A stretch of DNA of 64,000 nt, taken from positions 1 to 64,000 of the forward strand of contig CAISDA010000088.1 of NCBI GenBank assembly GCA_903884005.1, given 5' to 3'. Below the pieces are notes generated by a model. The model made no database searches and had not been told where the DNA came from. It saw only the letters and a list, made by a program, of their open reading frames with translations. Below are positions 13,333 through 20,471 of this stretch, piece after piece; positions within the stretch are counted from its first letter, which is position 1; each line of letters starts with the position of its first letter. This stretch comes from an uncultured Ignavibacteriota bacterium (GTDB taxonomy: Bacteria; Bacteroidota; Ignavibacteria; UBA10030; UBA8401). The translations under genes were made by a program, and so were the position numbers.

Positions 13333-13867
13333 GCAGGCTCCTTATGTTGTTCGGCTGATGAATACGGTCGAGTCGCGGCAATGGCCTACAGTCCATTAGA
13401 CGATCGTGACCGTGAGATTGTGATGCGTAATAAGTGTGTAATGGAACGATGCCGCAGTGAAATAAAACGGTATGGAAAATGATTGCAGTGCATTGGCTGG
13501 CCGGCTGTTCGAGACGCGACAGTCGTCTACAACCGCGGATGGTGAGGATTCGGGAGAACGGCGCGGGTCTGATAGTGCTCTTGCGCGCGCGAGCAGGCCG
13601 GTACGATTCATCATGTTCATCCAAAGAATATGTATAATATTTGATAGAATACTGGTATTTTGAGTAGTATCAAATTTTATATGGGTCGTATTCCTTGGCA
13701 GTAATAAAAATAATGAGTACACTACCCTTTGATCGACAAAGAGTGGTCACGCTGTTGACAGGTACAAGATACTCTTTCCAGATGAAAATAACATGAAATT
13801 GCATGTTTCGAGGATGATAATTTTCAACGCTTCTATCCATGATGTATAAGTGAATGATCGTTCCTCC
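13333..13867. promoter_or_regulatory. AT-rich divergent intergenic region
   Basis: No gene is supported. The left part (13333-13600) is the leader of the leftward His-rich protein operon. The right part (13615-13850) is strongly AT-rich against a GC-rich background and precedes the rightward two-component operon. Candidate promoter-like AT tracts occur around 13630-13690. A leftward open frame at 13396-13722 has no homology, signal or ribosome-binding site and was not annotated. Confidence 0.4.
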
Positions 13868-14545
13868 ATGAGAATCCTCATAATAGAAGACGACAAAAAA
13901 ATTGCAGCGGCGATCGCAAAGAATTTGCGCGCCGAAAGCTACGCAGTCGATCTTGCGACGAACGGCGTTCAGGGTGAGGAATTGGCGAATGTCAATGAGT
14001 ATGACATCATTCTGCTCGATCTCTTGCTTCCCAAACAGGACGGATGGACGACATGCACGCATTTGCGCCGCGACGGCATCCTGACCCCGATCCTTATGTT
14101 AACCGCATTCGACGACGTCGCCGATAAGATAAAAGGCCTGGACGCCGGAGCAGACGATTACCTGTCGAAACCATTTCACATCGGCGAACTGTTTGCGCGC
14201 ATCCGGTCGTTGACACGGCGGACCACGGAGGTGCGGACAACGCGCATAGAGCACGCCGGATTGAGCCTCGACTTGAACACGCATCGCGCGTCGCGCGACG
14301 GAAAAAGCATCAAATTATCGACGAAGGAATTCGCCCTGCTGGAATTATTCATGATGCATCCGGAAGTCATCATTTCGCGGGAGATGATCTCCGAGCACCT
14401 GTGGGATATGAACTTCGAACCGCGCAGCAACGTCATAGAGTCGTTCGTCAAGTTTCTTCGCCAAAAAATCGACCGTGGATTTTCGAGATCCCTCATTCAC
14501 ACCGTCCGCGGTGCCGGCTATATATTTTCCATCAAAGAACCATAA
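13868..14545 (+). CDS. OmpR/PhoB-family response regulator
   Basis: A transcription factor of 225 residues. The receiver domain (1-120) shows the acidic pair EDD at its start, phospho-acceptor D51 in LLDLLLP, a conserved Thr in MLTAFD and Lys in LSKPF. The C-terminal winged helix (about 130-222) includes the KLSTKEFALLELFM recognition-helix region and ends with the usual HTVRGAGYIF. The internal ATG 13868 was preferred to ATG 13850 because it puts the first beta strand at the N-terminus and D at position 51. The kinase gene begins 2 nt after its stop, so the two form a translationally coupled pair. Confidence 0.93.
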   Translation: MRILIIEDDKKIAAAIAKNLRAESYAVDLATNGVQGEELANVNEYDIILLDLLLPKQDGWTTCTHLRRDGILTPILMLTAFDDVADKIKGLDAGADDYLSKPFHIGELFARIRSLTRRTTEVRTTRIEHAGLSLDLNTHRASRDGKSIKLSTKEFALLELFMMHPEVIISREMISEHLWDMNFEPRSNVIESFVKFLRQKIDRGFSRSLIHTVRGAGYIFSIKEP

Positions 14546-14547
14546 CG

Positions 14548-15939
14548 ATGTTCTCCATCAAAACCCGATTGATCATTTCCTATTCGCTGATGTTCGAAAT
14601 CGTGCTCATTGCATACTCGATATTCATTCATCATACGGTAAGGGACGCTGCGATCACAACATTGGACACGCGTTTGGTGAGCACCGCCGGCCGATTCGAA
14701 GATGAGCTGGAGGAAATATTTCACGATAAACAGACGATCGACTTCACCGATATTCTGCATGCAAAAAAACAAACTCCCGCGCAATTCTCGGTGCGCCTGT
14801 GGGATATGACCGGCTCGTTGCTCTACGCCGATACAATGCTCGCGTTGGTGCCGGCGGCGTTCGTGGCAGACGCACTGCGGGGAACAACACGGTTCGATAT
14901 GATTCAGATACAGTCTCAAGAGTATCGAACGGCATTCCTTCCGATATCAATTCGCAACGTCCCCTATTGCATCGCTCAATTCACCGTTCCGATGACCGAG
15001 ATTGAAGAAAGCATGAGCCATCTCCAAACGATTTTTTATATCTCGTTCCCATTGGCGTTTGTATTGTCCGCTCTTGTCGGATATATTATAGTCTATGCCG
15101 GGTTCCGCCCCATGACCCGCATGATAGAAAGCGCTAAAAATATTTCGGAGAAGAATCTTGAAGAACGGCTGCCGACCCCCGGAAAGAACGACGAAGTGAA
15201 AACACTGGGCATGACATTTAACAGGATGATCGAGCGGATCGAATCGGCGTTTCAAAGCCAGCGCCAATTTATCGCCGATGCATCGCATGAGATCCGCTCG
15301 CCTCTGACCATTATCAGCGCCGAGTTGGAATTTGCGCAACGGTCACTCGCCGATGGCGATGTAAAAAACAGCATCCGGATATCTTTGGACGAGGTCGGCC
15401 ATCTCAAGCACTTGACGGACGATCTTCTTCTGCTTGCAAAGCTCGATTCGCAGCAGCTGACGCTCAATCGGCGGTATTTTCGGTTCGACGAACTTGCCGC
15501 CGATTGCATACGGAAGGTGAAACAGGTCGCAGCAGCGAAGGGAACGACGATCCAGCTGCAGGTAGAACCGGGAATTGAATGGTATGGCGATGCGGAAAAA
15601 ATAAGCAGCGTTATCATCATTCTTCTGGACAATGCGATAAAATATTCATATGAAAAGTCCGCTATCTGTGTTGATCTCTTCCTCCGCGACGCGAAGGAAA
15701 TACACCTTCATGTCACGAATAGCGGCATCGGTATTTTACCCGCAGAACTCCCGCTCGTCTTCGGGCGTTTTTTCCGCTCAAGCGCGACACGGAACGAGTC
15801 GAGCGGCAACGGACTCGGATTAGCGATCGCCCGAAGAATTATTGAGCTGCATTCGGGAACGATCGCCGTGTCCAGCATCCCGCAGGACAAGACAGTCTTT
15901 CGTGTTCAATTGCCTGCGATTCAACCGGCACTATCGTGA
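14548..15939 (+). CDS. Membrane sensor histidine kinase, partner of the OmpR-type regulator
   Basis: The 463-residue inner-membrane kinase has an N-terminal membrane helix (about 8-30), a periplasmic sensor region (about 31-165), a second helix (about 166-188), a HAMP linker (to about 240), a HisKA domain with H247 in DASHEIRSPLT, and a HATPase domain (about 345-460) with N, G1 and G2 boxes (GNGLGLAIARRI). The architecture is of the EnvZ/CusS/PhoR class. The start is the ATG two bases after the regulator stop; the frame is open further upstream within the regulator gene, but that extension reads through an unrelated frame. The signal is unknown. The region upstream of the pair is AT-rich. Confidence 0.93.
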   Translation: MFSIKTRLIISYSLMFEIVLIAYSIFIHHTVRDAAITTLDTRLVSTAGRFEDELEEIFHDKQTIDFTDILHAKKQTPAQFSVRLWDMTGSLLYADTMLALVPAAFVADALRGTTRFDMIQIQSQEYRTAFLPISIRNVPYCIAQFTVPMTEIEESMSHLQTIFYISFPLAFVLSALVGYIIVYAGFRPMTRMIESAKNISEKNLEERLPTPGKNDEVKTLGMTFNRMIERIESAFQSQRQFIADASHEIRSPLTIISAELEFAQRSLADGDVKNSIRISLDEVGHLKHLTDDLLLLAKLDSQQLTLNRRYFRFDELAADCIRKVKQVAAAKGTTIQLQVEPGIEWYGDAEKISSVIIILLDNAIKYSYEKSAICVDLFLRDAKEIHLHVTNSGIGILPAELPLVFGRFFRSSATRNESSGNGLGLAIARRIIELHSGTIAVSSIPQDKTVFRVQLPAIQPALS

Positions 15940-16881: not shown

Positions 16882-18066
16882 ATGGAAATAGAAAACAGAT
16901 ACGGCAAGCTCATCAATTATTTGACGGACTACATCTATACCGTCACAATACAGGACGGAGAGGTTGTCGATACATTCCACGGCCTGGGCTGCGTGTCGGT
17001 GACGGGGTATACATCGGATGATTACAAAATAAATCCGGAGCTCTGGTACAACATGGTGCCTCAAAAAGACCGGGCACAGGTATTGGAGAAGGCCCGGCTG
17101 GCGCTAGCGGGAGAAGAGACGCTTCCGCTGGAGCACCGAATCATTCATCGCGACGGCACAACACGATGGATCCGCAACAAGATTATCGTCACAAAAGATG
17201 CGGACGGCATACCAATCGCATACGACGGATTGATCAACGATATTACGGCGCTGAAAAAAGCGCAGGCCGCAGAGGCGATCAAAAACCGTCAGCTCATACA
17301 GGCCGATAAAATGGCCTCGCTCGGGATCCTGGTCTCGGGCATCGCGCACGAGATCAATAACCCGAACAATTTCATCCTCCTGAACATACAGCTGTTCTCA
17401 AAGATCTGGAAAGACGTCGCGCCGATACTCGATTTGTATCATGCGGAGAACGGCGATTTCAGCATTGCGGGCATATCGTACGCCGCATCGAAGGAAAAGA
17501 TCGCCCAGTCGCTCGAGGGCATACTGATCGGATCGGAGCGCATACAAAACATCACGAAGCGCCTGACCGACTATGCAAAGACGGACAGCGGCATCTTGAA
17601 CGAATCCGTCGATATCAACAAGGTTGTCAGCATGGCCATCGTCATCACCAACACGCTGATCAAGAAATCGACGACGAAATTTTCAGTCGACTACGGCAAG
17701 GATCTCCCCAGGATCCGGGGGAACGCACAACAGTTGGAGCAGGTGGTCATCACGCTCATCAATAACGCCTGCCAGGCGCTTGTGCGGACAACCGAAGAGA
17801 TCCATATTGTGACATACTTCGACCGGCTGCGCGGAAAAGTGCGCATCAAGGTCAGGGACGAGGGCATCGGGATCAAGGAAGAAGATCTGAAATACATCAT
17901 GGACCCGTTCTTCACGACGAAACGGGACATGGGCGGAACCGGACTGGGGCTGTCCGTGTCGTACAACATCGTTAAAAATCACGGGGGCAGCCTCATCCTG
18001 AAGAGCGAACCGAACAAGGGAACCACGGCGCGACTCTCGCTGCCGATGGAGACGGAAACAGAATGA
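16882..18066 (+). CDS. Cytoplasmic PAS-domain histidine kinase
   Basis: The 394-residue kinase has no membrane helix. A PAS fold covers about residues 5-130; its closing motif (AYDGLINDITALKKAQAA) leads to a HisKA-type helix with H156 in SGIAHEINNPNNFI. The HATPase domain spans about 270-390 and carries GGTGLGLSVSYNI. Its SGIAHEINNP sequence is of the NtrB/AtoS class, whose members commonly phosphorylate sigma-54 activators. The activator gene follows 16 nt downstream, supporting a cognate pair. AAGGA lies 9 nt before the ATG. The long leader from 16627 is shared with the divergent cyclophilin gene and has an AT-rich tract (CTTATATTAGTATAG, near 16816) that may be its promoter. Confidence 0.92.
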   Translation: MEIENRYGKLINYLTDYIYTVTIQDGEVVDTFHGLGCVSVTGYTSDDYKINPELWYNMVPQKDRAQVLEKARLALAGEETLPLEHRIIHRDGTTRWIRNKIIVTKDADGIPIAYDGLINDITALKKAQAAEAIKNRQLIQADKMASLGILVSGIAHEINNPNNFILLNIQLFSKIWKDVAPILDLYHAENGDFSIAGISYAASKEKIAQSLEGILIGSERIQNITKRLTDYAKTDSGILNESVDINKVVSMAIVITNTLIKKSTTKFSVDYGKDLPRIRGNAQQLEQVVITLINNACQALVRTTEEIHIVTYFDRLRGKVRIKVRDEGIGIKEEDLKYIMDPFFTTKRDMGGTGLGLSVSYNIVKNHGGSLILKSEPNKGTTARLSLPMETETE

Positions 18067-18082
18067 CAAGAAGGTTGGCACT

Positions 18083-19522
18083 ATGAGCCGGAATATTTTT
18101 CCATCAAACCCGATCCTCTTCGTCGACGACGAAGCGCATTTCCTGTTGAGCGTCGAGCTGACGCTTTCATCGCATGGCATCAACAATATTGAAACGTGCA
18201 AGGACAGCCGCACGGTGATGGAGCTCCTGTCCAAGCGGCAGTATTCTCTGGTCGTGCTGGATATCAATATGCCGTACGTCTCCGGCGTGGAGCTGTTGCC
18301 GCGGATCGTCGATGCGTATCCCGATACGCAGGTGATCATGATGACGGCGATCAACAACGTGGAGAGCGCGGTGCTCTGCATGAAACAGGGCGCATTCGAT
18401 TACGTCGTGAAGCCCGCCGACGATACGCGGCTTGTGACCGCAATACGGCGCGGGCTGGAACTCACCGGTGTGCGCGACGAGAATGAGATGCTGAAAAAAT
18501 CGTTCCTCCGCGAAAAGATCGAACACCCCGAAGCGTTTGCCGAGATCGTGACGCGATGCAACACGATACAATCGATATTCAAATACATCGAAGCGATCGC
18601 AACAACAAATCTCCCCGTGCTCATCACCGGAGAAACCGGCAGCGGCAAGGAACTCTTCGCCAAGGCGATCCATACCTCCAGCGGCAGAACCGGCGAACTC
18701 GTCCCAGTGAATGTGGCCGGAGTGGACGATACGTTTTTTTCGGATACGCTCTTCGGACATAAAAAAGGCGCGTTCACGGGAGCCGCAATGGAACGGAAAG
18801 GGCTCATCGAGAAAGCGGAGAACGGCACGCTGTTCCTCGACGAGATTGGCGACTTGAGCATCGAGTCGCAGGTGAAATTATTGCGCCTCCTTCAGAACGG
18901 ACAGTACTATCCGCTGGGATCGGATATTGCCGTCCTCTCCAACGCGCGCATCATTGTCGCAACGCATCGCGACATACGGACCATGCAGGCGAGCAACACG
19001 TTCAGGCAGGATCTGTATTACCGGCTGAAGTCGCATCTCATCACGATTCCCCCGCTGCGCGAAAGGAAGATCGATCTGCCGTATCTCGTCGATCATTTCA
19101 TCACGAAGGCCGCCTCGGAGCTCGGGAAAAAAAGGCCGACGGCGCCGAAGGAACTCTACACACTGCTCGGCACGTATCCGTTTCCGGGAAACGTCCGCGA
19201 ACTGGAAGGCATGATCTTCGATGCGATCAGCGTGCATGACTCCGGAATGTTATCGCTTGTGTCCATACGGAAGACCATTGCCGAATACCACAACGACAGG
19301 AACCTGAAACCGGCGCACGGGAACGAGCAACAATCCCAGGTCGACGAGATCGTAAATTTTCCCGGCAGGTTTCCGACATTAAAAGAGACCGAAGAGTGCG
19401 TGATCGCCGAAGCCCTGAAGCGCGCGGAGAACAATCAGACCATCGCCGCAGAACTGCTCGGCATCTCGCGAAGAGCCTTGAACAACCGTCTGCGCCGCAC
19501 CGGCGATGATGTGGAAGCATAG
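18083..19522 (+). CDS. NtrC-family sigma-54 activator response regulator
   Basis: An enhancer-binding protein of 479 residues. Receiver domain 10-125 has phospho-acceptor D60 (VLDINMP). The AAA+ domain (about 155-385) has Walker A GETGSGKE (183-190), the sigma-54 contact loop GAFTGA (229-234), and Walker B LFLDEIGDL. A Fis-type helix-turn-helix lies at the C-terminus (ETEECVIAEALKRAENN, then AAELLGISRRALNNRL). GAFTGA means that it activates sigma-54 promoters by ATP hydrolysis. It is paired with the preceding kinase. A matching sigma-54 promoter and two upstream inverted repeats lie immediately downstream, in front of a secreted-protein gene, which is the obvious target. Confidence 0.95.
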   Translation: MSRNIFPSNPILFVDDEAHFLLSVELTLSSHGINNIETCKDSRTVMELLSKRQYSLVVLDINMPYVSGVELLPRIVDAYPDTQVIMMTAINNVESAVLCMKQGAFDYVVKPADDTRLVTAIRRGLELTGVRDENEMLKKSFLREKIEHPEAFAEIVTRCNTIQSIFKYIEAIATTNLPVLITGETGSGKELFAKAIHTSSGRTGELVPVNVAGVDDTFFSDTLFGHKKGAFTGAAMERKGLIEKAENGTLFLDEIGDLSIESQVKLLRLLQNGQYYPLGSDIAVLSNARIIVATHRDIRTMQASNTFRQDLYYRLKSHLITIPPLRERKIDLPYLVDHFITKAASELGKKRPTAPKELYTLLGTYPFPGNVRELEGMIFDAISVHDSGMLSLVSIRKTIAEYHNDRNLKPAHGNEQQSQVDEIVNFPGRFPTLKETEECVIAEALKRAENNQTIAAELLGISRRALNNRLRRTGDDVEA

Positions 19523-19590
19523 CATGTGTTGCATGATAGCACAGTCTGTGCTGCTGCAGCGGCCTATTTTCAACGAGGGTAACACAACAG

Positions 19591-19665
19591 AGCCTACATC
19601 GGGGCGATGTAGGGCGAAATGTTATTTCGCGAGAGGGCGAGTTAACAGCTCGCCCTACAATACGG
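19591..19665. repeat. GGGCGAG palindromic repeat, copy 4
   Basis: Three short hairpin arms in a row: CCTACATCGGGGCGATGTAGG, GCGAAATGTTATTTCGC and GGGCGAGTTAACAGCTCGCCC, then TACAATACGGCG. It separates the sigma-54 activator gene from the regulatory region of the 19942 gene and may end transcription of the former. Confidence 0.75.
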
Positions 19666-19680
19666 CGAGGTACACATGAT

Positions 19681-19696
19681 TGCCACATTTTGGCAC
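19681..19696. promoter_or_regulatory. Candidate activator site 1 (UAS) for sigma-54 promoter
   Basis: Inverted repeat TGCCACATTTTGGCAC (arms TGCCA and TGGCA). It agrees with the second site at 19780-19795 in 12 of 16 positions. It lies about 210 bp upstream of the predicted start site of the 19942 gene, within the usual range for enhancer-binding proteins. Binding by the regulator encoded just upstream is inferred. Confidence 0.5.
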
Positions 19697-19779
19697 AGAG
19701 CCACAGACCGGTTATTCATGGTAATGCATTGTAATAAATGAAGTTACAGCCGATTTCCATTGTAAACGCTTTCATGGAC

Positions 19780-19795
19780 TGCCGTTTTGTGGCAC
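19780..19795. promoter_or_regulatory. Candidate activator site 2 (UAS) for sigma-54 promoter
   Basis: Inverted repeat TGCCGTTTTGTGGCAC, similar to the site at 19681. The sites are 99 bp apart, and this one is centred about 115 bp before the predicted start site. Confidence 0.5.
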
Positions 19796-19872
19796 CCATT
19801 TCACTCCTTCAGACATTCCTCTTTTCCCCGCTATCATATTACTTATCAATACGTTATAGCGTCCGATGCGTT

Positions 19873-19889
19873 TTGGCATTCTTTTTGCT
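19873..19889 (+). promoter_or_regulatory. Sigma-54 (-24/-12) promoter
   Basis: TTGGCATTCTTTTTGCT matches the sigma-54 consensus TTGGCAC-N5-TTGCT almost perfectly, with the invariant GG and GC exactly ten bases apart. It lies 53 bp before the ATG at 19942 and directly follows the gene for a sigma-54 activator. Confidence 0.8.
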
Positions 19890-19941
19890 GTAGTATAAAG
19901 GGAAGGCCAAATACACAACAACCAGGGAGAGGAACCGCATC

Positions 19942-20370
19942 ATGACACTACGCACCGTAAAAAAAGCAGTCATCACCATCGCAGCGTTGGCGATCACAAT
20001 CAACGCTTCTGCACAAACATCCTCAACCGACGGCACTCTGCCGAAGGTCCGTCAGGAAAAAATCCTGCAGAATTTTCGCGCGTCGCTCAAAAGCGACTGC
20101 CTAGGCATCGTGGAAGGAACCATTTACAACGTCGTCGTCTTCAAGAAATATTATCCGGGCCTGGACTATTCCCCGCTCCTGACCGAACTGAATCGGAGCG
20201 CTCAGGCGAATGAGGACGCATCGGTGCGTTTCAAAGCGCATCTTGCGGCGATGTATCTGACTGACGATTCAGGACTGGAGATTGTTCCGCTCGCGCGCCC
20301 GTCGGACCATGAATATCTCTTTCGGCAGATCGTGCAGCAGTTGGAGAAAAAATTTCTGGTTACCAATTGA
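19942..20370 (+). CDS. Small secreted protein of a sigma-54 module, function unknown
   Basis: The 142-residue protein has a Sec signal peptide (1-24, NASAQ) and a mature part of about 118 residues. The mature part has one Cys (SDCLG), helix-rich segments and no T9SS domain or lipobox. The 40-140 region reads like a small alpha-helical repeat protein. No family was recognised. It is preceded by a strong AGGGAGAGGA ribosome-binding region and a near-consensus sigma-54 promoter, and followed by an intrinsic terminator, so it is a single-gene transcript. Its position after a kinase/activator pair suggests it is their output, made on demand in the periplasm, perhaps for sensing or stress protection (inference). 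Confidence 0.8.
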   Translation: MTLRTVKKAVITIAALAITINASAQTSSTDGTLPKVRQEKILQNFRASLKSDCLGIVEGTIYNVVVFKKYYPGLDYSPLLTELNRSAQANEDASVRFKAHLAAMYLTDDSGLEIVPLARPSDHEYLFRQIVQQLEKKFLVTN

Positions 20371-20425
20371 TGAATGGTTGATGCAGAGGGTCGGACACTT
20401 CGGAGCGAACCCGATCCTATAACGG

Positions 20426-20462
20426 AAAAAATCCTTCGTTGTATCAACGAAGGATTTTTTTT
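20426..20462. terminator. Bidirectional intrinsic terminator
   Basis: A perfect 11-bp stem ATCCTTCGTTG / CAACGAAGGAT with a three-base TAT loop is flanked by A5 on the left and T7 on the right, so it can work on both strands. It lies between the convergent 19942 gene and uvrC. Confidence 0.92.
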
Positions 20463-20471
20463 GATCACAGA

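Follow-up and report, generated by a model that had tools for sequence, protein, structure and literature searches.

A predicted two-component sigma-54 switch with a single detected secreted output in Ignavibacteria

The Cpx/CpxP and Bae/Spy two-component systems each induce a small exported helical protein of the LTxxQ hairpin type. The regulators of these systems belong to the OmpR type and do not use sigma-54, unlike the one described here. The closest known analogue of our locus is ZraPSR (HydHG) of enterobacteria, in which a kinase and an NtrC-type sigma-54 regulator drive a small exported protein from a sigma-54 promoter that belongs to the locus itself (PMC4987338). Here we describe a locus that shares this logic, found in a stretch of 64,000 nucleotides (the window) of contig CAISDA010000088.1, from an uncultured Ignavibacteriota bacterium. 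It codes for a PAS kinase, an NtrC-type sigma-54 activator, and a 142-aa secreted protein (the output protein), together with two facing putative operator boxes and a sigma-54 promoter (Table 1). We consider it likely that this module is a two-component sigma-54 switch dedicated to the one output detected, a reading drawn from comparative sequence analysis.

The module is a variation on a known two-component/sigma-54 design and not a new kind of system. In the enterobacterial locus, zraP and zraSR are read from divergent sigma-54 promoters, whereas the module genes are co-directional and the kinase gene has neither a box pair nor a sigma-54 promoter upstream. We had considered autoregulation of the kinase gene and rejected it, as only one TGCCAC half-site lies upstream in the window and nothing was found in two orthologues. 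The kinase is soluble, which we count as a further difference, and the output protein is not of the ZraP/LTxxQ type. The regulator scores 251.8 bits against the NCBIfam ZraR model (cut-off, 760), and the ZraS score is likewise far below its cut-off. With NtrBC/AtoSC and the other group I bacterial enhancer-binding protein systems, the module has in common the receiver-AAA+-Fis helix-turn-helix (HTH) architecture, GAFTGA, and, as predicted here, dyad enhancers and looping to the sigma-54 polymerase, but its predicted target is a single unrelated secreted protein, and the regulator is again below the NCBIfam cut-offs (AtoC, 333 versus 714 bits; NtrC, 329 versus 559 bits). The first-pass annotation had suggested a system not yet described, and our literature searches, incomplete in coverage, agree with it. 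No paper was found that deals with sigma-54 and a secreted protein in Ignavibacteria, and a Melioribacter multi-omics paper mentions only a different two-component system.

Linkage and co-occurrence of the module genes

Of 391 genomes from the class, mostly metagenome assemblies, 32 code for a regulator orthologue (at least 59% identity), and 31 of these 32 also have the output gene (about E <= 1e-18). In the single genome that lacks it (G391), the contig stops ca. 120 bp past the regulator. Relatives of the output gene were found with an alignment as the query; a contig scan with a single protein as the query gave no matches. Within the order, close relatives of the output gene were found in 12 of 98 genomes, nearly all of which also code for the regulator or the kinase. 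The kinase, regulator, and output genes are contiguous in families f1, f6, f12, f14, and f24, and in most cases overall the trio is either contiguous or split by nothing more than a contig end or a small insert. All named records come from Ignavibacteria or from unclassified Bacteroidota metagenome-assembled genomes. That a two-component system simply came to lie beside an unrelated gene is a reading to which we give practically no weight, as nothing was seen in its favor and it is refuted by this linkage and co-occurrence and by an operator conserved across several families.

Downstream of the kinase and regulator genes at one locus (L243, G265:C34), two module-type output genes, each with boxes, flank two large genes for histidine-kinase-like proteins.

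A conserved operator in front of the output gene

Two similar 16-bp inverted repeats had been annotated before at 19681 and 19780, the second reading TGCCGTTTTGTGGCAC on the forward strand from position 19780. Both are present, although they are imperfect dyads in which the conserved part is one strong half, TGCCAC. This half is the outer one in each dyad, which sets the two boxes face to face. In box 1, a third half-site (GCCAC) is often seen 18 to 19 bp further in. The promoter includes TGGCATTCTTTTTGCT, the sole perfect match to the sigma-54 consensus TGGCAY-N5-TTGCW in the window, and is one of eight perfect matches to TTGGCAY-N5-TTGCW in the 4.5-Mb genome.

Nearly every output gene of the module is preceded by TGCCACAtttcTGCA, its reverse complement further on, and then a sigma-54 promoter. 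Across orthologues, box 1 reads TGCCACAtttcTGC-N5-GCCACA, and box 2 reads tGCAatTTTGTGGCACC, which is the box 1 motif on the opposite strand. In a table of 31 output genes, GTGGCA follows TGCCAC at a distance of 93 to 99 bp in 29 and of 108 to 109 bp in the window's genus (108 bp at the window locus itself), and the promoter starts 82 to 86 bp after box 2 in most of them. The two hexamers are invariant in this table because they were used to find those genes; conservation of the flanks, spacing, and promoter played no part in its definition. Four further loci were opened after the rule had been fixed, and three fit it (93, 96, and 97 bp, one of them with GTTGCA in box 2). The recurrence of pair, spacing, and promoter at orthologous loci, along with a single exact copy of TTTTGTGGCACC (box 2) in the window's own genome, indicates that these predicted elements are more than chance matches.

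In five genomes (G084, G086, G087, G173, and G304), the output gene has no regulator gene beside it, and the boxes and promoter are still found upstream of it, while no boxes follow the regulator gene in G086 and G173. The footprint therefore goes with the output gene, which means that the regulator must act in trans. These unlinked loci also bear on an attenuator-like reading, in which the facing boxes, given the complementarity of TGCCACA and TGTGGCA, would pair into an RNA stem when transcription runs on from the regulator gene. We dropped it as very improbable, since the flanks of box 1 vary freely and the 3' flank of box 2 is mostly CC, with no compensating changes. Moreover, the boxes are 5' of the promoter and are retained at output genes unlinked from the regulator gene, and each box is itself a dyad.

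Our search for a wider regulon through the box pair gave no further target among the loci fetched from 22 genomes. The pair pattern elsewhere in these genomes was overall no commoner than a reversed-pattern control, and no sigma-54 promoter was detected behind other box pairs among the fetched loci, with a promoter pattern that misses TTCGC-type -12 elements. The box pair was also found in none of 42 more distant members of the output family. The regulator could control a larger gene set of which the secreted protein is merely the nearest member, as the pair pattern would miss sites that are weaker or have one box only, and the genome contains seven other perfect TTGGCAY-N5-TTGCW sites. We consider this unlikely, given the results from the fetched loci and the uniqueness of the exact box 2.

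Several observations weigh against a dedicated switch or reduce the force of the comparison. The statistical association of regulator and output gene (Fisher p of ~1e-36 over the 391 genomes) ignores shared ancestry, and most of the genomes are metagenome assemblies. One genome that is 92% complete (G087) has kept the output gene, boxes, and promoter, and neither kinase nor regulator was found in it. The fourth of the loci opened later belongs to a genus (g82; L236, L261, and L265) in which box 2 is altered and lies ca. 41 bp from box 1 (hand-counted) in place of the usual ca. 96 bp, with the sigma-54 promoter kept. Last, the GC of the -12 element is replaced by GA or GT in many orthologues.

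The inference of the first-pass annotation that the kinase and activator switch on the secreted protein is nevertheless supported by the linkage, the co-occurrence, and the boxes and promoter conserved in related genomes, including those at unlinked output genes. In the circuit that we propose, the cytoplasmic PAS kinase would sense an internal cue and phosphorylate the NtrC-type regulator, which would bind the two facing dyad sites, placed ca. 190 and 85 bp before the promoter. DNA looping would then bring the regulator to the RNA polymerase-sigma-54 complex, and the 142-aa gene would be transcribed from the promoter at 19873-19889. Phosphotransfer, binding, activation, and looping are predicted from sequence. 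The product would be exported via its signal peptide and, as a guess, could be an envelope effector that serves in stress or adaptation.

Parts of the locus and their surroundings

The PAS kinase gene, the GAFTGA activator gene 16 nt behind it, the only perfect -24/-12 promoter of the window, and the gene for a signal-peptide protein of no known family followed by a terminator were all recovered where the first-pass annotation had placed them (Table 1). The kinase has the H-box HEINNP at residue 156 and a hydropathy maximum of 1.31 (19-residue window), that is, no predicted transmembrane segment. The regulator (Pfam Response_reg, Sigma54_activat, AAA lid, and HTH_8) is composed of a receiver (PF00072, 1.9e-25) with the phospho-acceptor D60 in DINMP, an AAA+ domain (PF00158, 1.4e-56) with Walker A GETGSGKE at 183 and GAFTGA at 229, and a Fis-type HTH (PF02954, 4.1e-10). 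An intergenic region of 419 bp separates regulator and output genes. The genome has one copy of rpoN, the presence of which had been raised as a check. A tentative IHF/HU bend site is found at an equal position (-93 to -98 from the ATG) only in L151, L112, and L117.

Table 1. Features of the predicted switch (positions in the window)
Feature	Position	Strand	Basis or remarks
Soluble PAS sensor histidine kinase, 394 aa	16882-18066	+	Pfam PAS_3, HisKA, HATPase_c
NtrC-type response regulator/sigma-54 activator, 479 aa	18083-19522	+	Receiver, AAA+, Fis-type HTH
Enhancer box 1 (predicted), TGCCACATTTTGGCAC plus third half-site GCCAC	19681-19704	+	Conserved as TGCCACATTTCTGC-N5-GCCACA 5' of module output genes
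Enhancer box 2 (predicted), TGCCGTTTTGTGGCACC	19780-19796	-	Box 1 motif in inverted orientation, turned toward box 1; TTTTGTGGCACC conserved
Candidate IHF/HU bend site (tentative), TATCAATACGTTA	19844-19856	+	Fits WATCARNNNNTTR; between enhancer and promoter
Sigma-54 promoter (-24/-12), TTGGCATTCTTTTTGCT	19873-19889	+	Motif match and conservation in orthologues
Output gene, 142-aa secreted protein, signal peptide ca. residues 1-24	19942-20370	+	Open reading frame, no Pfam/NCBIfam family, fold model
Intrinsic terminator hairpin 3' of output gene	20423-20463	+	19-bp stem including T-run, -23.2 kcal/mol, z = -6.2

The stretch at 19590-19670, after the regulator gene and before box 1, holds an unrelated intergenic repeat with inverted arms GATGTAGGGCGA and TCGCCCTACA and 49 matches in the genome. 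Upstream of the module, past an opposite-strand cyclophilin gene, there is a separate pair of OmpR-type regulator and HAMP kinase (13850-15939). Rfam and tRNA searches of the 64-kb window were empty.

The recognition helix of the regulator (RRALNNRL) is invariant in the 23 module members read, and three diverged regulators without module boxes have other helices (RKTLVSRL, RATIIKRL, and RATIIKRV). One of these three, coded on the reverse strand at L143 (G094:C95), is 54% identical, and its gene is followed by facing boxes with different letters (GTGCTTC/GAAGCAC), ca. 100 bp apart, and a sigma-54 promoter ca. 83 bp past them, before a PAS-protein gene (distances hand-counted); the geometry is kept, and both letters and target differ.

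Kinase orthologues are 52 to 90% identical over the PAS domain. The mean identity of this domain (66%) equals or exceeds that of the catalytic domains (66 and 62%), while the output protein is only ca. 24 to 48% identical outside the window's genus. With the sensor domain kept this well and the output diverging, the sensed cue is probably the same in all module members.

The secreted protein and its distant relatives

The signal peptide of the output protein ends in ASA|Q, and a basic n-region, a hydrophobic core, and an AxA|Q-type end are seen across homologues (alignment A3, judged by eye). Over 17 homologues, Pfam gave nothing but stray matches below threshold; the output protein fits no Pfam or NCBIfam family, and a Protein Data Bank search gave no sequence relative. 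An AlphaFold2 model built with 17 homologues (mean pLDDT of 80, core of >90) has the signal helix and five further helices. Among its structural matches, HEAT/ARM proteins rank highest (Z up to 12.1, root mean square deviation of 2.6 over 79 residues, a range common for helical repeats), with Foldseek E values of >0.1 and no match by sequence profiles. The protein is thus modelled as a HEAT/ARM-like helical repeat, in contrast to the LTxxQ hairpin of the Cpx/Bae systems. A role in binding a protein or peptide in the envelope is only a guess, because such Z values are common among helical repeats and the Foldseek E values exceed 0.1.

In many genomes, distant relatives of the output protein are coded directly after a transmembrane histidine kinase and an OmpR-type regulator (L118-L127 and L131) or in looser linkage to such a pair (L027, L039, L040, and L130), while others stand alone with no adjacent two-component genes. 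The kinase of this second system has two transmembrane segments and an extracytoplasmic region of ca. 200 to 250 aa. Many members of both kinds, linked and stand-alone, have an upstream element with a 10- to 11-bp repeat pattern, TGACAT-N5-TACAA-N4-TGACGC...GACATCTT; it is conserved as TGACATCTTTTTACAACTnnTGACGCAACcGACATCTTT in L028-L038, L118, L119, L121, L122, L124, L126, and L240, also where adjacent two-component genes are absent. OmpR-type regulators bind repeats with such a 10- to 11-bp pattern. The second system has the same output family directly downstream, as in the module, and differs from it in its transmembrane kinase, regulator type, and operator. One kind of secreted protein is therefore found under two unrelated two-component systems. 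Still more distant members, from other families of the phylum, have no two-component neighbor, with one possible exception (L256).

Rather than an effector in its own right, the secreted protein might be an accessory to signalling in the periplasm or feed back on it, much as CpxP and ZraP do with their kinases. Direct contact between protein and kinase is possible for the distant relatives because of the extracytoplasmic region of their transmembrane kinase, and a title in the reference list of PMC4987338 reports ZraP as a repressor of its own ZraSR system. We find this doubtful for the module, where the kinase has no transmembrane segment and any feedback by the secreted protein would therefore be indirect. 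A broader idea, which we advance tentatively, is that the family serves generally as an envelope protein dedicated to signalling in Ignavibacteria and relatives, that two unrelated two-component systems have come to control it, each through its own conserved operator, and that the protein itself may carry or modulate an extracytoplasmic signal.

Implications

As a dedicated switch, the module would provide a complete and testable predicted circuit, with sensor, regulator, sites, promoter, and single output, for a little-studied class of bacteria, and it adds a secreted protein family that appears to have two independent links to signalling. The facing boxes, with their near-fixed spacing, kept at unlinked output genes and echoed with other letters at L143, may serve as a natural experiment on sigma-54 enhancer architecture.

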